A stretch of 64,000 bases of DNA from contig NZ_CP017157.1 of NCBI RefSeq assembly GCF_001729485.1, positions 5,084,001-5,148,000 of the forward strand, read 5' to 3'. A program made the position numbers and the translations under genes. Source of the stretch: Streptomyces lydicus. GTDB taxonomy: Bacteria; Actinomycetota; Actinomycetes; Streptomycetales; Streptomycetaceae. This document shows, in pieces, positions 3,665-37,302 of the stretch. The notes beneath the pieces were generated by a model. That model saw only the letters and a program-made list of their open reading frames with translations. It searched no databases and was not told the DNA's origin. Within the stretch, counting starts at the first letter, position 1; each line of letters opens with the position of its first letter.

Positions 3665-4399
3665 CTACTGCGGCGCGGCGGCCGGGCGCACCACGATCTC
3701 GTTCACCTCGACCTCCGGGGGCTGGGCGACGGCATAGGCGACGGCGTCGGCGACCGCGGCGGCGGGCAGGGCGACGGAGCGGTACATCTCCATGGCCTGC
3801 CGGGCCCGCGGATCGGTGAGGGAGTCGGCGAGTTCGGACTCCGTGACACCGGGAGAGACGACGGTGACGCGGATGTCGCCGCCGGACTCCTGGCGGAGCC
3901 CCTCGGAGAGCGCGCGTACCGCGAACTTGGTCGCGCAGTAGACCGCCGCCGTCGGAGACACCTCGTACGCCCCGACGGAGGCGATGTTGACGAAGTGTCC
4001 GCCGCCCTGGGCCCGCATCACGGGCAGTGCGGCGGCGATGCCGTGCAGCACACCGCGCACGTTCACGTCGAGCATCCGGTCCCAGTCGTCGACGCGCAGC
4101 GCCGCCAACGGCGAAAGGGGCATCACCCCGGCGTTGTTGACCATGACGTCGACCCGCCCGAACGCGGCGCGGGCCGCGTCGACGAAGGCGCGCACGCCGT
4201 CCGCGTCGGTGACGTCCACGCGCCGGTACGCGGCCGTACCTCCGGCGGCGACGAGCTGGTCGGTCAGTGCCGCGAGGCGGTCGGTGCGACGCGCGCCGAG
4301 GAAGACGCGGTGCCCGTCGGCGGCCAGTCGGCGTGCGGTCGCCTCGCCGATGCCGCTGCTGGCGCCAGTGATCACCACGGTCCGGGGATTGCCGTTCAC
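3665..4399 (-). CDS. Short-chain dehydrogenase/reductase (classical SDR)
   Basis: A 244-residue classical SDR that oxidises or reduces an alcohol/carbonyl with NAD(P). It has the nucleotide-binding TGASSGIG motif at 11-18, NNAG at 88-91, and the catalytic residues S141, Y154 and K158. An arginine after the second beta strand (GARRTDR) suggests NADP preference. The GTG at 4399 has AAGGAG 7-8 bases upstream. It is divergent from the ACP gene at 4694. It could supply ketoreduction to the neighbouring ACP/ketosynthase system, but this class is common as a free-standing oxidoreductase and the link is speculative. Confidence 0.85.
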   Translation of the reverse strand: MNGNPRTVVITGASSGIGEATARRLAADGHRVFLGARRTDRLAALTDQLVAAGGTAAYRRVDVTDADGVRAFVDAARAAFGRVDVMVNNAGVMPLSPLAALRVDDWDRMLDVNVRGVLHGIAAALPVMRAQGGGHFVNIASVGAYEVSPTAAVYCATKFAVRALSEGLRQESGGDIRVTVVSPGVTESELADSLTDPRARQAMEMYRSVALPAAAVADAVAYAVAQPPEVEVNEIVVRPAAAPQ

Positions 4400-4607
4400 A
4401 TCTGCTCCTTTGTCCCGTTGTCCGCGACCAGGCTCGGCCGCCGGACACGGGCGGGCCAGGCCGGGCCGCTCCTGGGTGCCGCGCGTCCACCCACCCGCAC
4501 GCCCCCGAAGGACAGGAAAAAACCGACACCGCGGACGGCTCCTCCCCGGGCCGCCACCGGGCCCGCCGGTCCGGCCCCGAAGTGCCTCACGCGGGGAAAA
4601 GCGCAGG

Positions 4608-4647
4608 TCGGAGCGGCACAGACAGGCACCGCTCCGAGCGGTAAACT
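4608..4647 (+). promoter_or_regulatory. Candidate promoter and operator of the ACP-KS-bioF unit
   Basis: A perfect 9-bp inverted repeat, TCGGAGCGG/CCGCTCCGA (4608-4616 and 4629-4637, 12-base spacer), ends four bases before a TAAACT -10-like hexamer at 4642-4647. That is about 45 bp upstream of the ACP start. The position suits a repressor site over the promoter of unit A. The binding protein is unknown, and no BirA-like or BioQ-like box was recognised. Nothing else was found in 4400-4693. Confidence 0.45.
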
Positions 4648-4693
4648 CCGGTCGGCGCGTGCCTGGACGTTCGTTCATGGGGAGGCCGTAGCA

Positions 4694-4930
4694 GTGAGCG
4701 ATGCAGTGTTCGAGACAGTCCGGTCGTGCGCGGTGGAAGTGCTGCAGGTCGCGCCGGAAGAAGTGACCATGGAAGCGGATTTCACGGACCACTTGGGGGC
4801 CACCAGCCTGACCCTCGTGGAGCTGGTCATGGCGATCGAGGAAGCCTGCTCCGTCGATCTGCCCGATGACGGCGTCGAGTCCGTACGGACCGTCCGCGAC
4901 GCCTGCGAGTTAGTGCGCGCGCGGATATGA
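4694..4930 (+). CDS. Dedicated acyl carrier protein
   Basis: A 78-residue acidic four-helix acyl carrier protein. The 4'-phosphopantetheine site is Ser38 in the motif GATSLTLVEL. The usual Asp before the serine (DSL) is replaced by Thr, which is unusual. The gene overlaps the downstream ketosynthase start by ATGA, so the pair is translationally coupled. Leu73 is encoded by the rare codon TTA (4910-4912), which in Streptomyces needs the developmentally controlled bldA tRNA. As first gene of a unit ending in bioF, it is the likely carrier for the growing pimeloyl chain (inference). GTG start; GGGGAGG lies 8-14 bases upstream. Confidence 0.88.
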   Translation: MSDAVFETVRSCAVEVLQVAPEEVTMEADFTDHLGATSLTLVELVMAIEEACSVDLPDDGVESVRTVRDACELVRARI

Positions 4931-6123
4931 GGGGCGACCGGCGGGTGGTCGTCACGGGCCTGGGCAGCGTCACCGCCGCCGGGGCCGGCCGGGACGCACT
5001 GTGGGCGGACCTGCTGGCGCCCCCGTCACCCGGGCACCGCCCGGTGGACGGCTGGGACGCCACGCCCTGGATGGACCGGGCCGCGATCCGGCACACCGAC
5101 CGCTGCGCCCAATTCGCGGTGGTGGCCGCCGAGTTGGCGGTCTCCGACGCCGGGGGCGCGAAGGCCCTGGCCGCGAGCGGCCGGCCGGAGCACGCGGGCG
5201 TCGTCCTCGGCACCGCACTGGCCGGGGTGACCACCATGGAACGGCAGTCGCTGGTGCGCGAGGCGCGCGGCGACAAACGCGTCTCGCCGTTCGTGGTACC
5301 GATGATCATGCCGAACGCGGCGGCCGCCGCGGTGTCCCAGCGGTTCGGCTGGCAGGGGCCCTGCGAGATGCTCACCACCGCCTGCTCCTCGGGAACGCAC
5401 GCCATCGCCGCGGCGGCCCGGCTGATCGCGTACGGCGTCTGCGACACCGTGCTCACCGGCGGCACCGAGGCCGCCGCGTACGGCACCGTCCTCGCCGGGT
5501 TCCGGAACATGCGCGCGCTGTCCGGCACCGGCCGCACCCGCCCCTTCGACAGCGGCCGGGACGGCTTCACGGTCGCCGAGGGCGCGGCGGCGCTGGTGCT
5601 GGAGGCGGCGGACACCGCGCGGGCACGCGGCGCCAGGGTCCTGGCCGAGGTGCTCGGCGCGGCGAGCACTGCCGACGCGTACGACGTGACCATGCCGTTG
5701 CCGGACGGCTCCGGCGCCGCCCGGTGCATGGACCTGGCCCTGCGGGAGGCGGCGCTGGCCCCGTCCGACGTGGCGCAGATCAACGCACACGGCACCGGCA
5801 CGCTCCAGGGCGACCTCGCCGAATCACGGGCCGTGGCGCGGGTCTTCGGCGCCGGCGGGCCCCCGGTCACCTCCGCCAAGGGCGCCACCGGACACGTCTT
5901 CGGCGCCAGTGGCGCGCTGGAGGCGGTGGCCGTGGTGCTGTCGATGACCCACCGTCTGATCCCGCCCGTGCAGGGCCTGACGGAGCCGGACCCCGGGCTC
6001 GCCCCGGGGCTCGACCTGGTGCGGGGGAAGCCGCGCCCCTGGACGCCGGGGCCGGCCCTGTCCAGTTCGTTCGGCTTCGGCGGCCACAACGGTTGCCTGG
6101 TGCTGGGGCCGGCCGAAGCGTGA
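4927..6123 (+). CDS. Beta-ketoacyl-ACP synthase, FabF type
   Basis: A 398-residue KAS I/II-type condensing enzyme. The catalytic triad is visible: C153 (TTACSSGTHA), H288 (NAHGTGT) and H323 (GATGHVFGASGA), with K318 alongside. It extends an ACP-bound acyl chain by two carbons from malonyl-ACP. Coupling with a private ACP upstream and bioF downstream suggests it builds the pimeloyl precursor outside housekeeping fatty acid synthesis. It is not the FabH-like BioZ known from alpha-proteobacteria, because the active-site order and length are of FabF type. No partner chain-length factor is present. Pathway role is inferred. Confidence 0.88.
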   Translation: MRGDRRVVVTGLGSVTAAGAGRDALWADLLAPPSPGHRPVDGWDATPWMDRAAIRHTDRCAQFAVVAAELAVSDAGGAKALAASGRPEHAGVVLGTALAGVTTMERQSLVREARGDKRVSPFVVPMIMPNAAAAAVSQRFGWQGPCEMLTTACSSGTHAIAAAARLIAYGVCDTVLTGGTEAAAYGTVLAGFRNMRALSGTGRTRPFDSGRDGFTVAEGAAALVLEAADTARARGARVLAEVLGAASTADAYDVTMPLPDGSGAARCMDLALREAALAPSDVAQINAHGTGTLQGDLAESRAVARVFGAGGPPVTSAKGATGHVFGASGALEAVAVVLSMTHRLIPPVQGLTEPDPGLAPGLDLVRGKPRPWTPGPALSSSFGFGGHNGCLVLGPAEA

Positions 6124-6167
6124 CCACGGGCGCGGCGGCGCGCCGGAGGAACCGAGGGAGCTGTTGC

Positions 6168-7340
6168 ATGGACCGTCCGGAGTACGCCCGTCAGCCGTCC
6201 CCCGAGGCCGTGTTCGGCTGGCTGGACGACAGCGCCCGGCGCCGGGAGCGCGCCGGTCTGCGCCGCCACCTGCGGGTCCGGGACGCCACCGACCCGGGGA
6301 TCAACCTCGCCGGGAACGACTACCTCGGTCTCGCCACGCACCCCGAGGTGACCGCCGCGGCGGCCGGGGCCGCCACGGTCTGGGGAGCCGGCGCGGGTGC
6401 GGCCCGGCTGGTGACCGGGACCACCCGGCTGCACGAGGAGCTGGAACGGGAACTCGCCGCGTTCTGCGGCACCGAGGCCGCCCTCGTCTTCTCCTCCGGC
6501 TACCTGGCCAACCTCGGGGCGCTCACCTCCCTGTGCCGGCCCGGCAGTCTGGTGGCGGCGGACGCCACCAACCACGCCTCGCTGATCGACGGCTGCCGGC
6601 TCTCGGGCGCGGAGGTGGTGGACCTCCCGCACCACGACACCACCGCGCTGGAGAAGGCGCTGGCGGACCGGCGGCAGCCCCGCGCGCTGGTGGTCACCGA
6701 ATCCGTCTTCTCGGTGGACGGCGACCTCACGGCTCTGGACGCGCTCGCCGCCGTCTGCCGCCGGCACGGTGCCGGGCTGCTGGTGGACGAGGCGCATGCG
6801 CTCGGTGTGATCGGCGAGCGCGGCCAGGGCGCGCTCGGCGCGGCCGGGCTGGCCGGGAGTCCGGACACGGTCGCCACGGTCACGCTGTCCAAGTCGCTCG
6901 GGGCGCAGGGCGGCGCGGTGCTGGGCCCGCGCCGGGTGATCGAGCACGTGCTCAACAGCGCCCGCGGCTTCCTGTTCGACACCGGCCTCGCCCCGGCCTG
7001 CGCCGCCGGCGCGCTGGCCGGGCTGCGCGTCCTGGTGCGGGAGCCCGGGCGGGTGGCCCGGGTCCGGGCGGTGGCCGCGCGGCTGCACGCCGGGCTGGCC
7101 GCCGCCGGGCTGCCGGTCGCCGCCGCGCAGGCCGCCGTCGTGTCCGTACGGGCCGGGTCCGCGCACGGTGCCGTCGCCTGGCGGGACGCCTGCCGGGCGG
7201 CGGGCGTCGAGGTCGGGTGTTTCCGTCCGCCGTCGGTGCCGGACCGGTTCTCCCGGCTGCGGCTCACCGCCCGGGCCGACCTGACGGATGATCAGGTCGA
7301 CCGGGCGGTGCAGGTGATCACGGACTGCCGCCCCGGCTGA
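6168..7340 (+). CDS. bioF: 8-amino-7-oxononanoate synthase (BioF)
   Basis: A 390-residue PLP enzyme of the alpha-oxoamine synthase family. It condenses pimeloyl-ACP/CoA with L-alanine to give 8-amino-7-oxononanoate, the first committed step of biotin ring assembly. Seen are NDYLGLA (50-56), the PLP-stacking H136, DEAH at 207-210 and the Schiff-base lysine K242 (SKSLGAQGG). The ATG at 6168 follows GAGGGAG at about 6 bases. The 3' end overlaps the convergent P450 gene by 23 bp. The other biotin genes nearby make BioF far more likely than the related KBL, CqsA or serine palmitoyltransferase. Confidence 0.93.
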   Translation: MDRPEYARQPSPEAVFGWLDDSARRRERAGLRRHLRVRDATDPGINLAGNDYLGLATHPEVTAAAAGAATVWGAGAGAARLVTGTTRLHEELERELAAFCGTEAALVFSSGYLANLGALTSLCRPGSLVAADATNHASLIDGCRLSGAEVVDLPHHDTTALEKALADRRQPRALVVTESVFSVDGDLTALDALAAVCRRHGAGLLVDEAHALGVIGERGQGALGAAGLAGSPDTVATVTLSKSLGAQGGAVLGPRRVIEHVLNSARGFLFDTGLAPACAAGALAGLRVLVREPGRVARVRAVAARLHAGLAAAGLPVAAAQAAVVSVRAGSAHGAVAWRDACRAAGVEVGCFRPPSVPDRFSRLRLTARADLTDDQVDRAVQVITDCRPG

Positions 7341-8598
7341 CCGTCGCGGCCCTGCGGACCGGCACGGCCGGCGGGGCGCGGAACGACAGCAGCCCGCGCA
7401 TCGGGACCGTGGACCCGGGATCGGCGAGCCGCAGGTCGGGCAGGCGCGCGGAGACCGCCCGCAGCACGGTCTCCGCCTCCATGCGGGCCAGCGCGGCCCC
7501 CGGGCAGCGGTGCCGCCCCAAGCCGAAGGACAGATGCTCCCGGCCGTGCGGCCGGTTCGGGCGGAGCAGCTCGGGGGCCTCGAAGACGGCCGGGTCCGAT
7601 CCGGTGGCGGCGAGCATCAGCAACAGCTTCGCGCCCTGCGGCAGTTCCACGCCGCCGAGCCGGGTGGGCCGGGCCGTCACCCTGCGCCAGGTGGTCAGCG
7701 GCGGTTCGCGGCGCAGCATCTCCTCGGCCCAGGCCGCGGCCAGGGCCGGCTCCCGGCCCAGCCGCGGCCACAGCCCGGGGTCGGAGAGGGCGCGCAGCAG
7801 CATCGTGGCGAGCATCTGCCCGGTGGTGGTCTGCCCGGCGATGACCATGAAGTAGCAGACGGCGACGATCTCCCGGCGGCTCAGCGGCGTACCGTCCGGC
7901 TTCCGGTGTGCGGCGAGCCGGGCGAGCAGACCGGTCCCGCCGGGCACCGCCCGCTCGGTGAGGCCGTCGAGCCACTGGTGGAACTCGGCGGCCAGCCGGG
8001 CGAGCGGCAGTTGGCGCTCGCGGGGCGGGGCGCCCCAGAACAGCTCCAGCGAGGCGTCGTTCCAACGGGCGAGCAGATCGATGTCCACGTCGACGTCGCC
8101 CGCCAGCCCCAGCACCCGGAGCATCACCTCGAACGGCAGGTCCCGGGTGAGGGTGACCACCAGGTCGCAGCTCCCCCGGTCCGCCAGCTCCTTCTCGATG
8201 CGGTCCAGACGCGGTGCCATCAGCTCGTGGACCAGCGGTACGGCGGCGGTCACCCGGTCCCGGCGGAGCATCCCGGTGACGATCCGGCGCAGACCGGCGT
8301 GGGTGTCCGTGCCGTTGTTGGCGAGCGTCGGCGGCAGCGTGAAACCGGCCGCCGCCAGGCAGCGCAACGCGGGCACGGACAGCGGGACCACCGCGTCGAG
8401 CGCGTTGTCCGGACGGTACAGCTCCGGGTCGAGCAGCACCCGCCGCACGTCGCGGTGGGTGCTGACGAGCCAGAGGCCGGTACCCGGGTCGTGGTGGACC
8501 GGCCCGGTCTCCCGCAGCGTCGCGTAGACCGGGTACGGGTCGTGCAGGAACTCCGGCGCGAAGAGGTCCACCGCCGGGCAGGGGTGGTCGGAGGTCAC
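7318..8598 (-). CDS. Cytochrome P450, candidate BioI-like pimeloyl-forming enzyme
   Basis: A 426-residue soluble P450. The heme-ligand motif is [10 protein letters not shown] with C365, and the K-helix ExxR is E293-R296. The I-helix reads AGQTTT (254-259), so the acidic residue of the usual AGxE/DT is a threonine. In Bacillus, the P450 BioI cleaves long acyl-ACP to pimeloyl-ACP, and the setting here suggests a similar oxidative step. The ATG at 8598 overlaps the bioB stop as ATGA, so it is the last gene of unit B. No ferredoxin or reductase gene is adjacent, so redox partners must come from elsewhere. Substrate is inferred from context only. Confidence 0.9.
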
Positions 8599-9725
8599 CT
8601 CTCGGCCTGCTGCTCGGGGGTGAGGGGCAGGGCGTTGGGCGGCAGCTCCGTGCCCGTACCGCGCCGGCGGACCTTCACCACGTCGTCCCGGTGCTCGGGC
8701 ATGGTGGTCTCCGTCACGCCCTCGACGACGAAGCCGGCGTCCCGGATCATCTCCAGGTCGGCGGCGCCGGGCTGGCCCTCACTGGTCAGATAGTCGCCGA
8801 GGAAGATCGAGTTGGCGATGTGCAGGGCCAGCGGCTGCATGCCGCGCAGATGGATCTCCCGTCCGCCGGCCAGCCGCACCTCGACGTCGGGGCAGATGAA
8901 CCGGACCATGGCCAGAATGCGCAGGCAGTACTGCGGGGTGAGGGCCCACTCGGTGGCCAGGGGCGTGCCCTTGAAGGGCATCAGGAAGTTCACCGGCACC
9001 GAGTCGGGGTCCAGGGCGCGCAGCGAGAACGCCACCTCGACCAGTTCCTCCGGGCCCTCGCCCATCCCGGCTATCAGCCCCGAACAGGGCGAGAGGCCGG
9101 CCGCCTTGGCCTGTTCGACGGTGTCCACCCGGTCGGTGTAGGTGTGCGTGGTGCAGATGTCCGCGTAGCGGTCGCCCGCCGTGTTGAGGTTGTGGTTGTA
9201 CGCGTCCGCGCCCGCCTCGGTGAGCTGCTCGGCCTGGCCCTCGGAGAGCAGGCCGAGGCAGGCGCAGACCTCGACTCCGGGGCTGTCCTCGCGGATGGCG
9301 GCGATGGTGTCCGCCACCCGTCCGATGTCACGGTCCGTCGGGCCGCGTCCGCTGGCCACCAGGCAGACCCGCTTGGCGCCCGCGGCGACGCCCTGCCGGG
9401 CGGCCTCCGCGGCCTCCTCGGGCTTGAGCCAGGTGTACTTGAGGATCTCGGCCTTCGAGCCGAGCCGCTGGGAGCAGTAGGAGCAGTCCTCCGGGCAGAG
9501 GCCGCTCTTGAGGTTGACCAGGAAGTTGAGCTTCACCCGGCGGCCGAAGTAGTGGTGGCGGACCCGGGAGGCGCCGGCGACCACGTCGAGGACCGCCTCG
9601 TCGGGGGTCTTCAGGAGGGCCAGGGCCTCGGCGGGGGTGGGTAATTCCCGGCGCAGCGCCTTGTCGACGAGTGTGCCGATCAGTTCGTGGTGGGTGGCAT
9701 GGGCGTCGGTGGGGGTGAGTTCCAC
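8595..9725 (-). CDS. bioB: Biotin synthase (BioB)
   Basis: A 376-residue radical SAM enzyme that inserts sulfur into dethiobiotin. The SAM-cluster cysteines are C77, C81 and C84 (CPEDCSYC). Downstream are YNHNLNT, the 2Fe-2S ligand region [10 protein letters not shown] and the GGREIHLR stretch typical of BioB. The C-terminus is somewhat extended. The GTG at 9725 follows GGGAAGGGAAA. A gap of 128 bp separates it from bioD, with a possible -10 sequence in it, so bioB-P450 may also have its own promoter. Confidence 0.96.
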
Positions 9726-9755
9726 GGGGTTTCCCTTCCCGTACGGACGTGTGCG

Positions 9756-9774
9756 AGCCGTTCTCGGTACGGCT
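9756..9774. promoter_or_regulatory. Inverted repeat in the bioB leader
   Basis: Six-bp inverted repeat AGCCGT/ACGGCT with a 7-base spacer lies about 30 bp upstream of the bioB start. Further upstream on the minus strand is a TA-rich GAATACT that could be a -10 element. It could be an operator or a leader hairpin. The evidence is weak. Confidence 0.3.
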
Positions 9775-9853
9775 GTCCCGGGGCCGAGTATTCTCCGGGC
9801 CGCCGTGCCGGGAAAGGACGCAGTCCGGCCAGCGGTGTGCGGGGGGCCTCCGT

Positions 9854-10570
9854 TCAGGAGTGCCACCGCGCGACGAGGTCCGCGGCCTTGAAGTCCCCGC
9901 CCAGCGGCGCGCCCAGACCGGCCCGGGCAGCCGCGGCGAAGGCGTCGCGGTCCAGCGCCGCCAGGCCCGGCGGCAGGGCTCCGATCAGCGGTGCCGCGGT
10001 CATGTCGGGGAGGTCGGTGAGGTTGCAGCGCATGGCCAGATCCGGCTGTGCGGGCCAGCTGCCGATGACCACTCCGGTGAGCTGCGCGCCCCGGCGTGCC
10101 AGCGCCTCGGCGGTCAGCGCGGCCGAGTTGAGGGTACCGAGGCCGGCGGTGGCGACCATGAGGACCGGCGCCGCCAGCTCCGCCGCGAGGTCGGCGAGCG
10201 TCCATCCCTCGTCGTCGAACCGTGCCAGCAGCCCGCCCGCCCCCTCGATCAGCACGAGGTCGTGGTCGGCGTCCAGCGCCCGCACCGCCTCGGCCACCGC
10301 GTCCTTCGGCAGTCCCGGCAGCCCCGCGCGGCGGGCGGCGGTGGCGGGCGCCAGCGGCTCGGGGTAGCGGGCGAGCTCCAGGGTCCGCACCGGGCCGGCC
10401 AGCCGCACCACCTCGGCGAGGTCGCCGTCCTGATCGGACGTCAGTCCGGTCTGTGCCGGTTTCACCACGGCGACGCGTTGTCCCGCGGTGCGTGCGAGCG
10501 CCGCCACGGCAGCCGTGGTGACGGTCTTCCCGACCTCCGTGCCGGTTCCGGTGACGGCCAGCAGCGCCAT
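9854..10570 (-). CDS. bioD: Dethiobiotin synthetase (BioD)
   Basis: A 238-residue ATP-dependent carboxylase that closes the ureido ring: 7,8-diaminononanoate plus CO2 gives dethiobiotin. The N-terminal P-loop is [10 protein letters not shown] (residues 7-16), followed by the conserved KPAQTG stretch and an EGAGGLL motif. The ATG at 10570 lies 51 bp downstream of the bioA stop in the same operon. Length and motifs are normal for the family. Confidence 0.95.
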
Positions 10571-10621
10571 GTCTCTCCCTCGTCTCGGCCCGATGTTCCG
10601 TGTCGCGTCGTGCCCGTGCCC

Positions 10622-11926
10622 TCAGCCCGCCCGTGCGGCGGCCACGACCGCCGCCGCGATGCCCGCCGTGTCGTCCGCCGAACACCGGTAGGGCGGCATG
10701 GTGTAGACGAGGTCGCGGAACGGCCGCAGCCACACGCCGTGGCGGGCGGCCGCCGCGGTCGCCGCGGTCACGTCCACCGGGTGGTCCAGCTGGACCACCC
10801 CGATGGCGCCCAGCACCCGTACGTCCGTGACGCCCGGCAGTTTCACCGCGTCGGCCAGTCCGTCCCGCAGGCCGGCCTCGACGCGTGCCACGTCCTGTCG
10901 CCAGCCGCCGTCCGCCAGCAGGTCCAGGGAGGCGCCGGCGACCGCGCAGGCCAGCGGGTTACCCATGAACGTGGGCCCGTGCGCGAGGACGGGGACCTCG
11001 CCCTCGGAGATCCCGCGGGCCACCTCGGTCGTGCACAAGGTGGCCGCCAGGGTGAGGTACCCGCCGGTCAGCGCCTTGCCCACGCACAGCACGTCCGGCC
11101 GTACCCCGGCGTGTTCGGCGGCGAAGAGCCGTCCGGTCCGGCCGAATCCGGTGGCGATCTCGTCGAGCACCAGCAGCACCCCGTGCTCCCGGGTGGCCTC
11201 GCGCAGCACGCGCAGGTAGCCGGGGTGGTGGAAGCGCATGCCGCCGGCTCCCTGCACCACCGGTTCGACGATGACGGCGGCCAGTTCCGGCGCGTGCCGG
11301 GCCACCGTCGCGGCCAGCCGGTCGGCGTAGGCGGGGTCCACCGGGGTGTCGAAGCCGCCGGGCGGCGCTTCGGCGAAGACCTGCGCCGGCAGTACGTCCC
11401 GCCACATGCCGTGCATCCCCCCGTCGGGATCGCACACCGACATGGCGTGCAGGGTGTCGCCGTGGTAGCCGCCGCGCCAGGTCAGCACCCGGTGCCGTTC
11501 CGGCCGGCCGCGCGAACGCCAGTACTGCAGGCACATCTTGAGCGCCACCTCGACCGACACCGAGCCGGAGTCGGCCAGGAAGACGTGGTCCAGGCCGTCC
11601 GGTGTGAGCGCGACCAGCCGGGCCGCCAGCTCCACCGCCGGCGCATGGGTGAGCCCGCCGAACATCACATGGCTGATCCGCCCGAGCTGGTCCCGCACCG
11701 CCGCGTCCAGCGCGGGGTGCGCGTACCCGTGGATCGCCGCCCACCAGGACGACATCCCGTCGATCAGCTCCGTACGGCCCTCGAACGGCGTCGCCAGCCG
11801 CAGCCGCACGCCGTGCCCGGACTCCACGACCAGCGGGGGCGGGGCGCCGGGCAGCGGCGCGTAGGGGTGCCACACGTGGTGGCGGTCGAACGCGAGTAAG
11901 TCCTCAGGCGTCACGGCCGAGAGCAT
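10622..11926 (-). CDS. bioA: Adenosylmethionine-8-amino-7-oxononanoate aminotransferase (BioA)
   Basis: A 434-residue class III PLP aminotransferase that converts 8-amino-7-oxononanoate to 7,8-diaminononanoate, normally with SAM as amino donor. It has the BioA-specific WHPYAP start, [11 protein letters not shown] (58-68), YHGDT, D255 and the PLP lysine K284 (GKALTGGY). Leu10 is encoded by TTA (11897-11899), so full expression should depend on bldA. No clear Shine-Dalgarno precedes the ATG at 11926; an in-frame GTG at codon 5 is an alternative that would keep the TTA. It lies 46 bp downstream of the reductase gene. Confidence 0.95.
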
Positions 11927-11972
11927 AGGCGCGTCGCGCGTCGCGCGAAATGGCGCCTCGGGAGCCGGCCGG

Positions 11973-12971
11973 TCAGCCGGTGAGGCGCAGCAGCACCTTG
12001 CCCGGCCGGCCCGGTTCCGCGTCCCGCAGCAGTGCCCGGCGGACGGCGGACAGCGGGTACACCCCGGCCACCTGCGAGGCGGCGGTGCCGTCCAGGACCA
12101 GCTCGTAGACCTCGGCGAGGGCTTCCGTGAGACGGTCCGGGTCCGTGGTGTGCACGCGGTGCACCCAGTCCCGGAGCCGGAACAGCACGAGCCGTACGTC
12201 GGGCCGCGCGGCGGGCAGGTCCGCCGGCAGCGGGCGTCCGGAGAGCAGGCCGTAGTGCACCAGGGCGCCGCCGGTGGCGAGGGCGCGGCCCAGCTCCGCG
12301 CCCTCGGCCCCGCCGACCGCGTCCAGCACCACGTCGGCCCCGCGGCCGCCGGTGAGTTCGCGCACGGCTTCGCCCGCGGCACGGTCGGCGGTGCACACCG
12401 CGGCGGTCAGCCCGGCCCCGGCCAGCGCCGCCAGGCCGCGGGGGTGCCGGACGACGGCGATCGGCCGGATTCCCGCGCGGTTCAGCATCCGGATCAGCAT
12501 CCGGCCGATGGTGGACGCGGCGGCGTTGACCACGACCAGCTCCGCCCCGGCCGCCACGACGTGCTGACGCACCATCAGATGCGCGGTGAGCGGGTTGATG
12601 TACGCGGTGGCGGCCTGCTCGTCGCTGAGTTCGGGGCGGACCGGGAGGCACCACCGGCCGTCGGTGACCTTCGTCTGCTGCCAGGCGCCCGCGCTGCCGA
12701 GCGGGAGCACCCGCTGGCCCGGCCGGAGGTCCCGCACGTCCGGGCCGGTCTCCTCCACCACCCCGACGCCTTCGAAGCCGGGCACGAACGGCAGCACGGT
12801 GCGGGAGGCGTACGCACCGGAAATGGTCACCAGGTCGGACGGGTTGACGGCGGCCAGCAGCATGCGGACGGCCACCTCGCCGGGCCCCGGCCGGGCCGGC
12901 CGGTACTCCTCGGTGCCGACCACCTCGACTGCCGGGCCGAATGTCCTGACGATGCTGCGGAGGCGGGACAT
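11973..12971 (-). CDS. MECR/ETR-like 2-enoyl thioester reductase (MDR family)
   Basis: A 332-residue zinc-free medium-chain dehydrogenase/reductase. The run from NPSD (43-46) through SGAYASR to PGFEGVG (65-70) matches mitochondrial 2-enoyl thioester reductases, with Tyr54 at the position of their catalytic tyrosine. GAWQQ (95-99) and the NPLTAHLM stretch (126-133) are also family marks. Such enzymes reduce trans-2-enoyl-ACP/CoA with NADPH. As first gene of the unit leading to bioA, bioD, bioB and the P450, it could do the enoyl reduction of pimelate chain building (inference). Start at 12971 has GAGGA upstream; ATG 12986 is an alternative. It could also be a generic quinone oxidoreductase. 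Confidence 0.82.
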
Positions 12972-12991
12972 CGGCGAAGTCCTCATACGGT

Positions 12992-13059
12992 GGTGACAGT
13001 TGGGTGACGGTCTGGGTACCGTGCTGTACGCAGGCACACAGTCACAGACAGCTGGTGAC
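12992..13059. promoter_or_regulatory. Divergent promoter region with GGTGAC repeats
   Basis: The 110-bp gap between the divergent units B and C holds GGTGAC at 12992-12997, 13003-13008 (11 bp on, about one helical turn) and 13054-13059. A GTCAC at 13041-13045 forms an inverted repeat with the last copy. Repeats in a shared promoter region suggest one regulator acting on both biotin units. The regulator is not identified. Confidence 0.4.
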
Positions 13060-13081
13060 CCTACACGGATTGCGGGGGTTC

Positions 13082-13513
13082 GTGCGGCAGCGAGTTCCGT
13101 TCTCGGACGTCGACATGCACGGTCATGTGCACAACGGCGTGTACTGCTCCTACGCGGAGACCGCGATCAACGAGTTCCTCCGCGAGGCGGGGCTGTCCGA
13201 GCGCTTCGACCCCCGCGCCGACTCCCACGGCGTCGTGTACCACGTGAAGAAGGTCGAGCTCTGCTACGACGGTTCGGCGGGCTTCGACGACGTCCTGGAC
13301 ATCACCGCGGGCGTCCGGCGGATCGGCACCAGCAGCCTGACGTTCTCCGCCGCCATGGTGCACGCCGGGGACCGCGCGCCGGTCGCGCGCGCCGAGGTCG
13401 TCTGGGTCTGCGTCGACCGGGCCACCGGCCGGGCCCGCCCCGTCCCCGAGCCGACCCGCGAGGCGCTGACCGCCGCGGCCGCCCCGGCACCGACCGCGAC
13501 CGAGGGCCGGTGA
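13082..13513 (+). CDS. Hotdog-fold acyl-thioesterase (4HBT/FadM-like)
   Basis: A hotdog-fold protein of about 143 residues with the signature PFSDVDMHGHVHNGVYCSYAE, close to the D-x-GHVNN-x-Y active-site run of 4-hydroxybenzoyl-CoA thioesterase and FadM families. It would release acyl chains from CoA or ACP; a dehydratase role is less likely. The GTG at 13082 gives normal family length and leaves room for the divergent promoters. An upstream in-frame GTG at 13004 would add 26 residues with no family resemblance. It is followed within 2 bp by the ECF ATPase gene. Confidence 0.8.
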   Translation: MRQRVPFSDVDMHGHVHNGVYCSYAETAINEFLREAGLSERFDPRADSHGVVYHVKKVELCYDGSAGFDDVLDITAGVRRIGTSSLTFSAAMVHAGDRAPVARAEVVWVCVDRATGRARPVPEPTREALTAAAAPAPTATEGR

Positions 13514-13514
13514 C

Positions 13515-14192
13515 GTGCGCATCACTCTGGACGGCGTCTCCGTGCGGTTCGGCACGCGCACGGTGCTGGACGCGCTGGACGTCGAGCTGACCGAGCAGCG
13601 GATCGGAATCATCGGCTCCAACGGCTCCGGGAAGAGCACCTTCGCCCGGCTGCTCAACGGCCTGGTCCTGCCCGACGAGGGAACGGTCCTGGTCGGTGGC
13701 CACGACACCGCGAAGGACGTCCGGCGCATCCGCCGGCAGGTCGGGTTCGTCTTCCAGAACCCCGACAACCAGATCGTGCTGCCCCTCGTCGAGGAGGACA
13801 TGGCCTTCGGCCTGCGGAACACCGGCGTGCCCCGCAAGGAGATACCCGGCCGGGTCCGCGAACAGCTGGCGCACCTCGGCATCGCGGCCCTGGCCGACCG
13901 GCCCAGCCATGCCCTGAGCGGTGGCGAGAAGCAACTCGTCGCGCTGGCCGCGGTGCTGGTCATGCGGCCGGAGACGGTGGTGTTCGACGAGCCCACCACC
14001 CTGCTGGACCTGCGCAACCGCAATCTGATCCGGGACACCGTCGCCGCCCTGCCCCAGCAGGCCGTCGTCCTCACCCACGACCTCGACCTGCTGACCGGCT
14101 TCGACCGGGTCCTGGTCCTCGACCGGGGCCGCGTGGCGCACGACGGCCCGCCGCGGACCGCCGTGCCCTGGTACGTGGAACGCTGCTCATGA
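13515..14192 (+). CDS. bioM: ECF transporter ATPase for biotin (BioM/EcfA)
   Basis: A 225-residue ABC ATPase of the CbiO/BioM type. Walker A GSNGSGKST lies at 34-42, the Q-loop QNPDNQ at 81-86, the signature LSGGEKQ at about 134-140, and Walker B is VVFDEP. It powers biotin import together with EcfT and BioY encoded immediately downstream. There is a single ATPase gene, as in BioMNY systems, rather than the EcfA1/A2 pair of Firmicutes. The GTG start is one base after the stop of the hotdog gene, and its stop overlaps the next ATG. Confidence 0.92.
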   Translation: MRITLDGVSVRFGTRTVLDALDVELTEQRIGIIGSNGSGKSTFARLLNGLVLPDEGTVLVGGHDTAKDVRRIRRQVGFVFQNPDNQIVLPLVEEDMAFGLRNTGVPRKEIPGRVREQLAHLGIAALADRPSHALSGGEKQLVALAAVLVMRPETVVFDEPTTLLDLRNRNLIRDTVAALPQQAVVLTHDLDLLTGFDRVLVLDRGRVAHDGPPRTAVPWYVERCS

Positions 14193-14845
14193 GGATGTCG
14201 CTGTACGTCCCCGGCACCTCCCCGCTGCACCGGACCGGGGCCCGGTGGAAGCTGGCGGCGCTGCTGCTGTGCGGCGTGGCCGTCTTCCTCACCACCTCCG
14301 TGGCCGTCCTCGGCCCGGCCGCCGCCGTCGCGCTGGCCCTGCTGCTGTCCGTACGCGCGCCCCAAGAGCAGCTCGTCCGGCAACTCCGCGGGCCGCTGCT
14401 GATCCTGGCCGCCGTGGTGGCGGTGGCGGCGCTCACCGAGTCGGTGCACGCCGCGCTCGTGGTGGGGTTGCGGCTGGTCGTGCTGCTGCTGTCCGCGCTG
14501 AGCGTCACGCTCACCACCCGGACCTCGGAGCTGCAGGAGGTGCTGGAGCTGGTGCTGCGGCCGCTGGACCGGGCGGGGCTGGTGAACGCCTCCGCCGTCG
14601 CGCTGGCGGTGTCGCTGGCGCTGCGCTTCATCCCGGAGGTGTTCCGGCAGTTCCAGGAGATCCGGGAGGCGCAGGCGGCGCGCGGTCTGCGGGGCAGTCC
14701 GCTCGCGCTCGTCGTGCCGCTGGTGATCCGGGTGCTGCGGTCGGCGGAGGACATCGCGGCCGCGATCGACGCGCGCTGCTACCCGCCGGCCCGTTCCGGC
14801 CACCTCGACCGTCAGGAACGGCCCAGCGGAAAGGCAACCGGATGA
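14189..14845 (+). CDS. bioN: ECF transporter transmembrane coupling protein (BioN/EcfT)
   Basis: A 218-residue membrane protein with four to five hydrophobic segments in the N-terminal two thirds. The cytoplasmic helices carry the Ala-Arg-Gly coupling motif (AQAARGLRGS), which contacts the ATPase in EcfT proteins. It links ATP hydrolysis by BioM to substrate release by BioY. Start and stop overlap both neighbours by 4 bp, so stoichiometric translation is likely. Confidence 0.9.
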   Translation: MRMSLYVPGTSPLHRTGARWKLAALLLCGVAVFLTTSVAVLGPAAAVALALLLSVRAPQEQLVRQLRGPLLILAAVVAVAALTESVHAALVVGLRLVVLLLSALSVTLTTRTSELQEVLELVLRPLDRAGLVNASAVALAVSLALRFIPEVFRQFQEIREAQAARGLRGSPLALVVPLVIRVLRSAEDIAAAIDARCYPPARSGHLDRQERPSGKATG

Positions 14846-15423
14846 CCGCACGCACCCGTCCCTTGATGTCCACCCAGGACATCGTGCTGATCTCCCTGTT
14901 CTGCGCGATCATCGTCGCCCTGGGGCTGATCCCCCCGGTCAACATCGCCATCGTCCCGGTCCCGATCACCCTGCAGACACTCGGGGTGATGCTCGCCGGA
15001 GCGGTACTGGGTCCGGTCCGCGGCGCGTGCGCCTGCGCGCTGGTGGTGCTGCTGACGGTGCTGGGGCTGCCGGTGCTGGCCGGTGGCCGGGGCGGACTGG
15101 GCGTGATACCCGGGCCGACCGGCGGCTATCTGCTGGGCTGGATCCCCGGTGCGTATGTCACCGGGCTGCTGGTGAAGACGTTCGCGATGCGGGTGAGCCG
15201 CCGCGCCCCGCAGCTCGCCGCGTACTTCGCGGCCTGCGTCGCGGGCGGACTGGTCGTCGTCTATGCGATCGGCATCCCCTGGACGGCGGTCAGCACCGGG
15301 CTCGGCATGGGCAAGGCCGCGGTCGGTGCCCTGTACTTCGCGGTCGGCGACACGCTGAAGGCGGCGGCCGCGGCGGCCGTGGCGCACAACGTACGCCGCT
15401 CCTATCCGATCGAACCGAGGTGA
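14842..15423 (+). CDS. bioY: Biotin ECF substrate-binding component (BioY)
   Basis: A 193-residue six-helix S-component that binds biotin in the membrane. The family hallmarks are the run PVPITLQTLGVMLAGAVLGP and the later GPTGGYLLGW. The ATG at 14842 overlaps the bioN stop. Finding BioMNY in the same cluster as a full synthesis pathway means the strain can both make and import biotin. That also argues that the surrounding acyl-modifying genes serve biotin rather than an unrelated metabolite. Confidence 0.95.
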   Translation: MTARTRPLMSTQDIVLISLFCAIIVALGLIPPVNIAIVPVPITLQTLGVMLAGAVLGPVRGACACALVVLLTVLGLPVLAGGRGGLGVIPGPTGGYLLGWIPGAYVTGLLVKTFAMRVSRRAPQLAAYFAACVAGGLVVVYAIGIPWTAVSTGLGMGKAAVGALYFAVGDTLKAAAAAAVAHNVRRSYPIEPR

Positions 15424-15429
15424 GCGCGG

Positions 15430-17004
15430 ATGCCGTTGGCACAGCGGGTGGCGCGGACGGGGACGGGACCGCGCCGCGACGAGCCGGCCTTCGTCCTGGA
15501 CGGGCATGCCCTCACCCATCGTCAGCTGGCGGAACGGTCCGCGGCGGTGGCCGCGGGTCTGCGGGCGTTACGGCCGCCGGACCGGCAGTGGCTGCCGGCC
15601 GGCGCTCCGCTGCTCGCCCTCGGCACGGGCAACCACCCCGTCTTCGCCGAGCTGTTCACCGGCGGGACCGCGGGTGACGGCGTCTGCGCCGTCCTCGACC
15701 CGCAATGGGGCACGGAGCAGACCCGCGCGGTGCTGGAACGGCTCCGCCCCGACCTGCTGGTGCTGTCGGCCGGACAGGCCGCGCTGCACGAGGTCGCCGA
15801 GCGGCTCGGCATCCGTACGCTGCTCGCCGGCGGCGCCGGCTCCCCCGGCTCCTACGAGGAGTGGCTCGCCGCGGGGCTCGGCGCCGACCCGGCGGAGCAG
15901 CTGCGGGCCGGCGACGACTCCGCTCCCTTCCTGGTCGGGTTCACGTCCGGGAGCACCGGTCTCCCGCAGGCGTTCCTCCGCTCCCGCGGCTCCTGGCGGA
16001 TCAGCCTGGCCGACGGCCGCAAGGTCTGGGGCATGGACGCGGACCGGCACACGCTCGCGCCGGGGCCGCTCGCCCACGGTCTGAGCCTCTACGCGCTCGC
16101 CGAGTGCCTGGAGAGCGGGGCGGCCTTCCACGGGCTCGGAAAATTCGACGCCGCGGCGGTGCTCCGGGAGCTGGAACGGGCCCCGGTACGCCGGCTGATC
16201 GTGGTACCGACGATGCTCCGCGCGCTGTGCACGGCCGCCGCCGGGGCACCGGACGCGCCCGGCCGGCGGTTCACCACCGTCGAGACGGTGGTCAGCGGAG
16301 GCGCCAAACTCCCTCCGCAACTGCTCGGCCCCGTCGCCGCGTTGCTGCCCGAGGCGCAGGTACGGGAGTACTACGGCGCCTCGGAACTCGGCTTCGTCAC
16401 CGTGGGCTCGCCGGGTCCCGGAGCGGCCGACCAGGACGTCGGCACGCCCTTCCCCTCCGTCACCCTGGAACTCCGCGACGCCGAGGGCGCCCCCGTACCG
16501 CCCGGTTCGCCCGGTGTGGTGCACGTGCGCAGTCCGCTGGTCTGCGACGGCTATGTGTGGGGCGAGGGCAGCTTCCGCACCGAAGGGGGCTGGGCCACCG
16601 TCGGGGACACCGGCCGGCTCACGCCGGACGGGCACCTCCATCTCCTGGGCCGCGGCGGCATGGTGATCACCGGTGGGCTGAACGTCTACCCCTCCGAGGT
16701 GGAGAACGCGCTGATCCGGCTGGACCGGATAGACACCGCGCTGGTGACCTCGGTGCCCGACAGCTATCTGGGCCGGGCGCTGGTCGCCGTCGTCTCCGGG
16801 GCGGGCACACGGGGGCTGAGCCAGGCCGCGGTGCGCGACCTGTGCGCCGCCGTCCTCCCCCGCTACCAGGTCCCCCGCCGTTTCTACACCCTGGACTCGT
16901 GGCCGCTGACGTCGAGCGGCAAGATCGCACGGGGCCGGGTCGAGGAGTGGATCGCCCATGACGACGCACGGCTCGTCCCGCTCCCGGACGCGTCCGGTGA
17001 CTGA
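15430..17004 (+). CDS. AMP-forming acyl-CoA synthetase
   Basis: A 524-residue ANL-superfamily adenylating enzyme with the phosphate-binding loop FTSGSTGLPQ, where the usual Lys is Gln. It also has YYGASELG, the hinge-region LGRGGMVITGGLNVYP, and the A10 catalytic lysine in SSGKIARG. It activates a carboxylic acid to its CoA or ACP thioester. In this cluster the substrate may be a dicarboxylate such as glutarate or pimelate (inference; the family does not reveal substrate by eye). Codon 47 is TTA (15568-15570), the third bldA-type codon in the cluster. It begins 6 bp after bioY. Confidence 0.88.
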   Translation: MPLAQRVARTGTGPRRDEPAFVLDGHALTHRQLAERSAAVAAGLRALRPPDRQWLPAGAPLLALGTGNHPVFAELFTGGTAGDGVCAVLDPQWGTEQTRAVLERLRPDLLVLSAGQAALHEVAERLGIRTLLAGGAGSPGSYEEWLAAGLGADPAEQLRAGDDSAPFLVGFTSGSTGLPQAFLRSRGSWRISLADGRKVWGMDADRHTLAPGPLAHGLSLYALAECLESGAAFHGLGKFDAAAVLRELERAPVRRLIVVPTMLRALCTAAAGAPDAPGRRFTTVETVVSGGAKLPPQLLGPVAALLPEAQVREYYGASELGFVTVGSPGPGAADQDVGTPFPSVTLELRDAEGAPVPPGSPGVVHVRSPLVCDGYVWGEGSFRTEGGWATVGDTGRLTPDGHLHLLGRGGMVITGGLNVYPSEVENALIRLDRIDTALVTSVPDSYLGRALVAVVSGAGTRGLSQAAVRDLCAAVLPRYQVPRRFYTLDSWPLTSSGKIARGRVEEWIAHDDARLVPLPDASGD

Positions 17005-18208
17005 CGCCACCGGGTACCACCTCCCCGACGACCGGCAACCGGTGGTGGTCGCCGCCCGCCGGACCCCGATCGGCCGGGCCGGCGGCGCGCTGGCCGGCGT
17101 CGAGGCGTCGCAGCTGCTCGCGACCGTGATCGGGGACGTGCTGGCCGACGCGCGCGCCGACCCGGCGGAGGTCGGCGAGGTCATCGTCGGGAACGCGGCC
17201 GGCGGGGGCGGCAACCTCGCGCGGCTGGCCGCACTGGAGGCGGGACTGCCGACGGAGGTGCCCGGCGTCACCGTGGACCGGCAGTGCGGCTCCGGCCTGG
17301 AGGCGATCGTCCTCGCCTGCCGGATGGTGGCCGCCGGGGCCGGCGAGGTGTATCTCGCGGGCGGCGGCGAGAGCGTCAGCACCGCCCCCTGGCGGGTGCG
17401 GCAGCCGTCCCGCCCGGGCGGCCTCCCCGAGTTCTACGCCCGCGCCCGCTTCGCCCCGGAGTCGGTGGGCGACCCCGACATGGGCGTGGCCGCGGAGAAC
17501 GTCGCCGCCCGGTACGGCATCGGCCGCCGCCGGCAGGACGAGTTCGCCCTGCGCAGCCACCGGCGCGCCGTCGAGGCCCGGGAGGACGGCCGTTTCACCG
17601 CGGAGATCACCCCGGTGCGCACCGCCCGCGCGACGGTCACCCTCGACGAGTGCCCGCGCCCCGACACCTCCCTGGCCGCGCTGTCCGCGCTGCGGCCGCT
17701 CTTCGCCGCCCCCGGCGAGGGCACGGTCACCGCGGGCAACTCCTGTCCGTTGAACGACGGCGCGGCCATGGTCGTGGTCACCAGCCGGTCGCGGGCCCGC
17801 GCGCTGGGCCACCGCCGGGTCCTCGGCTTCGTCGACGCGAGCGCGGCCGGTGTGGACCCCAACCTGCTGGGCATCGGCCCGATCGCCTCCACCCGGCGCC
17901 TGCTGGCCCGGTGCCCGGACCTCGCCACCGCCGAACGCATCGAGTTCAACGAGGCGTTCGCCGCCCAGGTCCTGGCCTCGCTCGACGCCCTGGGCATCGC
18001 CGAGGAGCGGATCAACCTCGACGGCGGTGCCCTCGCCCTGGGTCATCCCTTCGGCGCCTCCGGCGCGGTCCTGGTGACCCGCCTCTTCACCCAGCTCGTC
18101 CGCGCGCCCGCGCCGGACCTCCCCCTCGGCTCCCGTGGCCTGGCCATGTTGGGCATCGCCGGAGGGCTGGGACTCACCGCGCTGTTCGCCGCGCAGGGGA
18201 CGGACTGA
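16958..18208 (+). CDS. Thiolase-family acetyl-CoA C-acyltransferase lacking the second catalytic Cys
   Basis: A 416-residue thiolase-family protein. The acyl-accepting nucleophile is C110 (DRQCGSG); NEAFAAQ and the ALGHPFGASGA histidine are present. At the C-terminus, where thiolases have the catalytic Cys of LCIGGG, this protein has LGIAGG, with Gly at about residue 399. It could still transfer acyl groups or act as a decarboxylating or scaffold variant. Its start overlaps the end of the ligase gene; a GTG at 16997 is an alternative. Last gene of unit C. A role in joining acetyl-CoA and a dicarboxyl-CoA unit is only a hypothesis. Confidence 0.85.
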   Translation: MTTHGSSRSRTRPVTDATGYHLPDDRQPVVVAARRTPIGRAGGALAGVEASQLLATVIGDVLADARADPAEVGEVIVGNAAGGGGNLARLAALEAGLPTEVPGVTVDRQCGSGLEAIVLACRMVAAGAGEVYLAGGGESVSTAPWRVRQPSRPGGLPEFYARARFAPESVGDPDMGVAAENVAARYGIGRRRQDEFALRSHRRAVEAREDGRFTAEITPVRTARATVTLDECPRPDTSLAALSALRPLFAAPGEGTVTAGNSCPLNDGAAMVVVTSRSRARALGHRRVLGFVDASAAGVDPNLLGIGPIASTRRLLARCPDLATAERIEFNEAFAAQVLASLDALGIAEERINLDGGALALGHPFGASGAVLVTRLFTQLVRAPAPDLPLGSRGLAMLGIAGGLGLTALFAAQGTD

Positions 18209-18226
18209 GCGGCGGCGGCGCGGCGT

Positions 18227-18568
18227 TCAGACCACGCTGACCGGCGCGGTCAGCACGTCGGTGGGCTCCGGGGGGACGGTGATCGTCCGGGTGTTGATCA
18301 GGTCGCCCGACTCGACGGAGCCGGTTCCGGCGAGGTCGATGTGGACGCGGAGGCCGTAGGTGGCGGCGGGGTCGAGGTCCGGCACCTCCACGCTGAAGGG
18401 GAACCGGCCGTGCGGGGCCAGCGGCACGTCCGTGAGGACCTGTGCGGCCACCACCGTGGAGGGGGCGTCGGCCAGCGAGACGTCCCGGACCTCCACCAGG
18501 GCCCGGGCCGCCGGGGTGGCGGGCGTTTCGGCGGGCAGTGCCACGACGCCGCGGACGAGGCGGGTCAT
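18227..18568 (-). CDS. Small beta-sandwich protein, YbaY-like
   Basis: A 113-residue protein with alternating beta strands (FPFSVEVPDLDPAATYGLRV, then VHIDLAG, GDLINTRTI). This resembles the YbaY/YscW-type domain usually seen in lipoproteins and chaperones. It has no signal peptide or lipobox. The ATG overlaps the stop of the ATP-grasp gene as ATGA, and it is the last gene of the long minus-strand operon. Its tight coupling suggests it serves the ATP-grasp enzyme or the injection apparatus, for example as a chaperone. This assignment is tentative. Confidence 0.6.
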   Translation of the reverse strand: MTRLVRGVVALPAETPATPAARALVEVRDVSLADAPSTVVAAQVLTDVPLAPHGRFPFSVEVPDLDPAATYGLRVHIDLAGTGSVESGDLINTRTITVPPEPTDVLTAPVSVV

Positions 18569-28855: not shown

Positions 28856-29235
28856 CAGATCGCCTCCAGGGTGGACTGCCCGGGATCGGCGACACTCCAG
28901 GTGCCCGGTGCCGGGCTGCTGACGGTGGTTCCGGTGGCGGTGTCCAGCAGCACCGGCTTGCCGCCGACCGTGAGCTTCGTCGCCAGGCCCGCCGGTGTCG
29001 CGGGCGCCGCGATGGTGCACGGCAGCGGGGAGCTGCCGTCGGGCGTGCGGATCGGGCAGGGGGTGAGCATGCCCGGGACGGGCAGGTCGGCGGCGCCGAA
29101 CCGGAAGCCGACCTCCGCGCCCGCGGTGACGACGCCGTGCCCCTGCACGGTGACCGTCGGCGCACCGGCGGTGAGCCGGGTCTGCCCGCCGTGCGAACAC
29201 TGGAGGACCGCGCCCTCCGTGAGTACCCGTGGCAT
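28855..29235 (-). CDS. PAAR-like spike tip protein
   Basis: A 126-residue protein with CSHGGQTRL near the N-terminus and a second Cys pair (CPIRTP...LPC), ending in KPVLLDTATG and a beta-rich tail. This resembles PAAR-like (DUF4280-type) proteins that cap the VgrG/gpD spike and sharpen it for membrane puncture. The gene directly follows the spike gene, as in other contractile injection systems. Zinc binding by Cys/His is inferred. Confidence 0.8.
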   Translation of the reverse strand: MPRVLTEGAVLQCSHGGQTRLTAGAPTVTVQGHGVVTAGAEVGFRFGAADLPVPGMLTPCPIRTPDGSSPLPCTIAAPATPAGLATKLTVGGKPVLLDTATGTTVSSPAPGTWSVADPGQSTLEAI

Positions 29236-31974: not shown

Positions 31975-31983
31975 GGCACGGCC

Positions 31984-37286: not shown

Positions 37287-37302
37287 CCCGGGCTCCTCGG
37301 TC

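Follow-up and report, generated by a model that had tools for sequence, protein, structure and literature searches.

The 64,000-nucleotide stretch of the Streptomyces lydicus genome considered here (the window; C1:5084001-5148000 of a single contig of 8,201,357 bases) carries, at window positions 4694-18208, a block of fourteen genes in which two modules have probably been joined: a cluster for a biotin antimetabolite on the left (4694-11926) and, on the right (11973-18208), a cassette of acyl enzymes linked to a BioMNY-type biotin transporter. An earlier note had read the block as a self-contained biotin supercluster, in which an acyl chain on a dedicated acyl carrier protein (ACP) is passed to BioF by a pimelate route of its own. 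This tempting reading of a new biotin pathway is corrected here to that of a biotin-antimetabolite cluster, consistent with a recent paper (PMC13336041). The left half is best assigned to the known mdb type; what deserves closer attention is the cassette joined to it.

All fourteen genes are open frames with coding-type G+C and family matches, and each of the 12 window proteins scanned showed one or more of the catalytic or ligand motifs expected, so the gene identifications of the earlier note hold. The genes lie in three closely spaced runs, ACP-KS-BioF on the plus strand, P450-BioB-BioD-BioA-reductase (by position) all on the minus strand, and thioesterase-BioM-BioN-BioY-ligase-thiolase-like on the plus strand, where KS is the ketosynthase, with overlaps of 4-8 bp at ACP/KS, P450/BioB, BioM/BioN and ligase/thiolase-like. 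In order, they are as follows.

4694-4930, plus strand: private ACP, MkpB-like (PF00550, 46 bits; GATSL attachment-serine motif)
4927-6123, plus strand: FabF-type KS, MkpC-like (TIGR03150, 376 bits, below the cut-off of 494; Cys-His-His motifs)
6168-7340, plus strand: BioF-like 2-oxoamine synthase, MkpD-like (TIGR00858, 382 bits, below the cut-off of 426; lysine motif)
7318-8598, minus strand: cytochrome P450, MkpG-like (PF00067; haem-Cys motif)
8595-9725, minus strand: second BioB (TIGR00433, above cut-off; CxxxCxxC)
9854-10570, minus strand: second BioD (TIGR00347, above cut-off)
10622-11926, minus strand: second BioA (TIGR00508, above cut-off)
11973-12971, minus strand: MECR-like enoyl-thioester reductase, MDR-type, of the cassette (PDB matches)
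13070-13513, plus strand: hotdog thioesterase, YbgC/FadM type (4HBT_2), of the cassette (PF13279; DxDxxGHxHN motif)
13515-14192, plus strand: BioM, energy-coupling factor (ECF) ATPase, of the cassette (TIGR04520, 216 bits; Walker and signature motifs)
14189-14845, plus strand: BioN, ECF T subunit, CbiQ-type, of the cassette (PF02361)
14863-15423, plus strand: BioY, biotin-type S subunit, of the cassette (PF02632, 130 bits, above cut-off; sole PDB match BioY 4dve)
15430-17004, plus strand: AMP-forming acyl-CoA ligase (LIG), PRK07638-like, of the cassette (PRK07638, 240 bits; adenylation motifs)
16997-18208, plus strand: thiolase-fold protein (THIO) of the cassette (TIGR01930, above cut-off; second catalytic Cys missing)

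The evidence for the left half comes from its likeness to published clusters. A seven-gene mkp cluster makes alpha-methyl-KAPA, a methylated form of the biotin intermediate 7-keto-8-aminopelargonic acid, and in S. lydicus DSM 40461 mkp stands beside extra bioADB genes as the mdb cluster, which yields the biotin antimetabolite alpha-methyldesthiobiotin (PMC13336041, Adv Sci, May 2026). According to the same paper, deletion of mkpC (KS), mkpD (BioF-like) or mkpG (P450, called a BioI homologue by the authors) abolishes alpha-methyl-KAPA, MdbA and MdbB are active in vitro, and MkpF, described as similar to FabH, is proposed to prime with isobutyryl-CoA. The construct used had its promoter upstream of mdbG, with mdbA, mdbB and mdbC being bioA, bioD and bioB, and from this description we infer that mdbA-G runs from BioA to ACP, that is, over window 4694-11926, with the reductase and BioMNY outside. 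KS, BioF-like and P450 genes with a private ACP are all present in the window, and their proteins are 48-67% identical to homologues in S. avidinii, S. katrae and genome G042 (51% for ACP with S. avidinii and S. katrae, 62% for KS with S. avidinii, 57-59% for P450 with the mkp-locus enzymes). The locus of S. lydicus NRRL ISP-5461, a strain that we take, from the same ISP number, to be equivalent to DSM 40461, keeps the gene order from xdhB through BioY into the beginning of LIG, where it ends, with identities of 93-100% (95% for KS). It is therefore very likely that the left half corresponds to an mdb-type antimetabolite cluster, and its product and gene roles can be assigned by homology.

In such a cluster, ACP and KS would extend a branched starter, isobutyryl- or 2-methylbutyryl-CoA, aided by primary fatty-acid enzymes; P450 would form a carboxyl by oxidation at the branched end, and to the resulting 6-methylpimeloyl thioester the BioF-like enzyme would add alanine, yielding alpha-methyl-KAPA; and the extra BioA and BioD would convert this to alpha-methyldesthiobiotin, against which the extra BioB may protect. 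For the homologous clusters, the product, the need for the genes and the BioA/BioD step have been shown, and the chain-building steps are the authors' proposal (PMC13336041). By carbon count, an isobutyryl starter and two malonyl units make 6-methylheptanoyl, in which four valine deuteriums remain (+4 Da) once a methyl has become a carboxyl; with a 2-methylbutyryl starter, the terminal carbon is lost and two carbons from threonine remain (+2 Da). Both values agree with the label data in PMC13336041; the count requires two condensations, and the wording of that paper (one MkpF and two MkpC cycles) is readable as three.

The deletions in homologous genes thus uphold the earlier note as to a dedicated ACP, KS and P450 route that feeds BioF, but biotin itself is unlikely to be the product of this route: the published product, the position of the window BioF and a separate ordinary biotin locus all speak against it. 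This second locus, bioF-bioB-bioA-bioD at C1:4790416-4794935, has a bioB above cut-off and encodes proteins 64-72% identical to the window copies (69% for BioB), and the same compact locus is held by G302, G042 and G039 (S. avidinii); the window genes are not the sole bioF/A/D/B set of the genome. In trees of 8 to 12 sequences each, the window BioF falls with cluster and MkpD proteins (support 0.98; 12 sequences), apart from housekeeping BioF, and the cluster BioD proteins group together (0.96), as do, weakly, the cluster BioA proteins (0.30); the BioB tree fails to separate cluster from housekeeping copies. To call the block self-contained goes too far: the acyl genes are there, but a ketoreductase, dehydratase or malonyltransferase gene was not found within 4694-18208, and the genome has, besides the second bio locus, a second BioY. 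BioY was found in 59 of the 61 genomes sampled, with two separate full-length copies only in the window's genome; in G010 one copy is full and the second is split.

A single pathway for the pimelate part of biotin, in which every acyl enzyme would work on the dedicated ACP ahead of the BioF step, is accordingly very improbable. It would account for the adjacency of the genes and for the order kept in G302 and, without bioA, in Streptomyces cattleya, and there is a P450 39.5% identical to that of the window at the end of a bioB-bioA-bioF-bioD operon in G393 (L145, C16:75000-81743), an operon that may encode a BioI-type route in a different actinobacterial family. It sits badly with the rarity of KS, with the MkpD-clade BioF, with the separate bioF-B-A-D locus in the same genome, with alpha-methyl-KAPA as the published product of homologous clusters (PMC13336041) and with the occurrence of acyl cassette genes in genomes without bioA and bioB above cut-off. 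One continuous pimelate route was rejected on the separate bio locus, the MkpD-clade BioF and the separable cassette.

We also compared four housekeeping bioF-bioB promoters (L127, L141, L142, L143), in all of which a region of the type GGTGTGGYRATACACACACC, with variations, could be aligned; a script found 6-base inverted arms around it in two of the four, and this conserved stretch is a candidate biotin-repressor site. Even with up to 3 mismatches, this pattern was absent from the window, no BirA site model being applied, and an operator common to the window and the housekeeping locus is unsupported.

The same gene set was found with all 14 genes in the same order in the Streptomyces genome G302 (61-83% protein identity) and with 13 of the 14, order kept, on the S. 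cattleya megaplasmid. The P450 copies of these two are 71-72% identical to that of the window, and the G302 cluster BioB is 83% identical. The S. cattleya copy, on pSCATT NC_017585 (L134, about 422396-434498), has bioB and bioD and lacks bioA, in a part of the record without annotated genes; in the G302 cluster, a phosphopantetheinyl transferase gene lies beside P450 and an S-adenosylmethionine-dependent methyltransferase gene beside ACP (L123:12276-13004 and 17471-18373). Within the genus, where the 3 to 5 best first-look candidates per genome were scored (3 or 4 for KS and LIG), KS was found in 4 of 392 Streptomyces genomes at E <= 1e-115 and the ligase in the same 4 at E <= 1e-66; the probability of such full coincidence would be 1e-9 under independence of the genomes, an assumption that does not hold. 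In G039 and G042 the ligase is of the mkp type (38-41% identity), and the cassette-type ligase occurs in 2 of the 392, both with the full cluster. The reductase (E <= 1e-60) was found in 6 of the 392, at 71% identity in G302 and 48% in the next best.

The set of reductase, thioesterase, BioMNY, ligase and thiolase-like protein is a separable cassette, and the idea that all acyl genes serve one route is unsupported, since these genes are found without ACP, KS or P450. Outside the window, genes were called with a simple G+C-position script, so that start positions may be inaccurate. In L135 the script overlooked the thioesterase gene and a portion of LIG, and in L136 LIG, THIO and a portion of the reductase; record annotation and tblastn filled these gaps. 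With no mdb genes nearby, the cassette occurs in G699 (reductase // thioesterase-BioMNY-ligase-thiolase-like) and, on one strand, in G582. On pSymB of Sinorhizobium meliloti we found BioM-N-Y, ligase and thiolase-like genes, the thioesterase on the other strand and the reductase, and three Azospirillum plasmids have BioMNY-ligase-thiolase-like without reductase and thioesterase. A ligase-thiolase-like pair also lies beside BioN-M-Y in G650 and, with no BioY called nearby, in G393. In all, ligase and thiolase-like genes stand beside a BioY-type transporter in the window, G302, S. cattleya, G699, G582, G650, S. meliloti and the three Azospirillum plasmids; Dinoroseobacter and Kocuria plasmids have BioY without the pair in the stretch listed. 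A link of the cassette to biotin is likely. Neither G582 nor G650, both rated 100% complete, has a bioB (8 genomes tested) or a bioA (6 tested) above cut-off, the bioA-like aminotransferase of G582 reaching 308 bits against a cut-off of 405, and therefore it is unlikely that the cassette genes there serve biotin synthesis by the usual route.

The proteins of the cassette offer further indications of its chemistry. The best PDB matches of the reductase are the putative quinone reductase 3gms (159 bits) and then mitochondrial enoyl reductases (103-104 bits), and it aligns with the latter over the GAY/GNY stretch, which we take to hold the catalytic Tyr. In THIO, Cys97 and His350 are kept of the canonical thiolase residues (presumably Cys89, His348 and Cys378), and the equivalent of Cys378 is Gly386. 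Across an alignment of 129 proteins, made of 9 from loci, the window included, and the best 120 of 6609 database matches, the nucleophilic Cys and the His are kept in all 129 and the second-Cys position holds Gly in 126, Ser in 2, Ala in 1 and Cys in none. Six alpha-proteobacterial copies from annotated loci, one of them within the 129, also have Gly, and as a control Cys is present in 19 of 19 readable other thiolases (30 loci, six genomes). In the thiolase mechanism, the second Cys is needed for carbon-carbon chemistry, and an acyl enzyme can form without it. Because this cysteine is missing, THIO probably transfers acyl groups and would be poor at making or breaking carbon-carbon bonds. The gene order in G042 (MFS, ACP, KS, BioF, ligase, thiolase-like, P450) makes it probable that MkpF of PMC13336041 corresponds to this thiolase-fold protein.

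This last point lends something to the possibility, which we nevertheless regard as doubtful, that the right-hand acyl genes belong to the antimetabolite assembly line, with LIG and THIO loading or priming the starter, a dedicated enoyl reductase, and a thioesterase that edits or releases. LIG and THIO homologues, mkpE and mkpF by gene order, lie within the mkp locus of G042 without BioMNY, the proposed priming by MkpF with isobutyryl-CoA would fit (PMC13336041), and the genes are co-located in the window, G302 and S. cattleya. In the tree, however, the window LIG groups with cassette ligases and not with MkpE, on which ground LIG was rejected as a simple mkpE orthologue. No THIO gene was seen in the mkp stretches read from S. 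avidinii and S. katrae, the cassette occurs with no ACP, KS or P450 nearby, and disruption of mkpE or mkpF leaves alpha-methyl-KAPA production unchanged, for which, in the case of mkpF, the authors invoke the host FabH (PMC13336041).

The main rival for the role of the cassette is plain fatty-acid activation. The best NCBIfam model for LIG, PRK07638, presumably covers YhfT, and YhfT of Bacillus subtilis is a probable relative of the window ligase, although the LIG score is far below the cut-off of 518, which was passed in none of 8 genomes tested; among 14 control genomes the model was matched in B. subtilis and Thermus, one of these above cut-off. In S. aureus or B. subtilis, bioY and yhfS-yhfT are under biotin-dependent BirA control (PMC6391492, PMC11089781, PMC7235819), and yhfT of B. 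subtilis is described as involved in surfactin production (PMC6323116). For these probable relatives of LIG and THIO in the Bacillus/Staphylococcus biotin regulon, the papers give putative roles or surfactin production; a literature search linking vraA/vraB with biotin found nothing, and those on norbiotins and on BioY-linked acyl operons led no further. It may be that the cassette activates or scavenges fatty acids when biotin, and hence acetyl-CoA carboxylase, is limiting, and adjoins BioMNY through a common response to biotin shortage; the Rhizobium copies without adjacent BioMNY described below would fit, but the reductase and thioesterase and the joining to a biotin-antimetabolite cluster would be left unexplained.

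Our first choice is biotin supply combined with salvage or detoxification, and fatty-acid activation is about as likely. BioMNY would import biotin or a biotin-like acid, the ligase would form its CoA thioester, the reductase could saturate an alpha,beta double bond, the thioesterase would release the acid and the thiolase-fold protein would transfer acyl groups. In a producer, such a cassette may secure biotin while the product blocks biotin synthesis. We suggest, tentatively, that it salvages or detoxifies biotins with altered side chains. A broader proposal, more tentative still, is that it represents an unrecognised vitamin-salvage system of actinobacteria and alpha-proteobacteria, related to yhfTS, that turns altered biotins into biotin and was captured by the producer as self-protection; dehydrobiotin, norbiotins or similar compounds would be imported, activated with CoA, saturated in the side chain and released as biotin. 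The literature searched, most of the matching papers being surveyed by listing, assigned no function to the complete cassette. PMC13336041 cites a bioRxiv preprint of 2025 about a biotin megacluster in Streptomyces, which may cover part of this subject.

Alpha-dehydrobiotin is another historical antimetabolite of S. lydicus. That the cassette makes it, the ligase forming biotinyl-CoA, a host acyl-CoA dehydrogenase adding the double bond and the thioesterase freeing the acid, is improbable. A ligase, a thioesterase and a biotin transporter do adjoin a biotin-antimetabolite cluster, and early papers on the compound appear as titles in the reference list of PMC6909392, but the cassette has no acyl-CoA dehydrogenase gene, its reductase would run in the opposite direction, and its genes also occur in rhizobia. 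To our knowledge, no alpha-dehydrobiotin-type product has been found in rhizobia.

Several observations weigh against joined antimetabolite and biotin-linked modules. On the left, there is no mkpA-type MFS gene between the short-chain dehydrogenase/reductase (SDR) gene of the window (3665-4399) and ACP, a position beside ACP at which one is found in G042 (Pfam) and in S. avidinii and S. katrae (similar proteins); the published mdb may likewise lack it. There is also no ligase gene between the window BioF and P450, the published mkpE and mkpF disruptions are without effect, as mentioned, and the window BioB groups with housekeeping Streptomyces BioB (0.76) and not with the cluster copies of G302 and S. 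cattleya. On the right, the S. meliloti ligase consists of two tblastn pieces with no listed gene; the pairs in G650 and G393 had neither a reductase nor a thioesterase gene called in their vicinity; and since two Rhizobium plasmids (L135, L136) have reductase // thioesterase-ligase-thiolase-like without adjacent BioMNY, the substrate need not be biotin-like. G699 and G393 carry bioA and bioB, so the genes are not confined to auxotrophs. Finally, the surfactin role of YhfT would, by analogy, favour a fatty-acid substrate, and because YhfT is a probable LIG relative, this lowers the odds of salvage.

With these points counted, we still prefer the account in which S. lydicus, G302 and S. cattleya have an antimetabolite cluster coupled to a cassette of transporter and acyl genes that is also found apart. 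Cassette genes in genomes without bioA and bioB above cut-off, together with the conserved Cys loss, provide two concrete handles on function.

Some further observations concern related loci and the surroundings of the block. The SDR gene lies just outside the block, and no match to it was found in the G302 stretch searched; in S. lydicus ISP-5461 (L005:8216-9560), a gene for a 56-residue basic protein and a CobW gene stand between SDR and ACP, and window 4400-4693 has neither. Many of the 80 KS loci kept are Acidimicrobiia-type metagenome bins, and the order SDR-ACP-KS in three KS loci read (L008, L009, L014) suggests an ordinary fatty-acid synthase origin. A bioA gene 70-73% identical adjoins mkp in S. 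avidinii (L126:14879-16183, 70%) and S. katrae (L006:1-333); the mkp-linked BioA of S. avidinii lies near the housekeeping BioA group in the tree, and an mkp-adjacent bioA may be a resistant target copy. In G042, a streptavidin-type gene (PF01382; L125:17619-18179) adjoins the P450 gene of mkp, an arrangement known from the published streptavidin nexus. Beyond the block, on the minus strand, window 18565-20771 holds an ATP-grasp gene with an MvdD-type pre-ATP-grasp domain (GRASP_SAV_5884, 249 bits, cut-off 350) that overlaps an astacin-type metalloprotease gene (PF01400), which suggests a peptide-processing pair, and a long run at 22898-39345, likewise all on the minus strand, resembles a locus for a contractile, phage-tail-like particle: it encodes a Baseplate_J protein (27001-28317), a LamG protein of 1368 residues and a protein with a weak Dit-like match.

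Compared with known systems, the window is closest to mdb of DSM 40461, from the same species and with the same extra bioADB and mkp-type genes; the main text of PMC13336041 describes mdb as bioADB and mkp only, leaves BioY, enoyl reductase, importer and thiolase unmentioned, and names a thioesterase and a transporter for nda only. The mkp clusters of S. virginiae and S. avidinii share ACP, KS, BioF-like protein and P450 with the window at 48-67% identity, and a ligase homologue, but their MFS gene adjoining ACP has no counterpart in the window, their ligase falls in a different clade, and no second bioB/bioD, reductase, thioesterase or BioY was found in the mkp stretches read. In Bacillus, the P450 BioI supplies a carboxyl in a biotin-type pathway. 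The window resembles BioI-BioW in having a P450 in such a pathway, and differs in its dedicated ACP and KS and in an expected product with an extra methyl; no BioW model matched in the block, and none of the best 60 of 448 PDB matches for the window P450 was named BioI. Lastly, the yhfS-yhfT/bioY arrangement of B. subtilis and S. aureus, likened here through the PRK07638 model and not through YhfT or YhfS sequences, has, like the window, a ligase and thiolase-like pair linked with a transporter or regulon for biotin; the window adds EcfA/EcfT, the reductase and the thioesterase.

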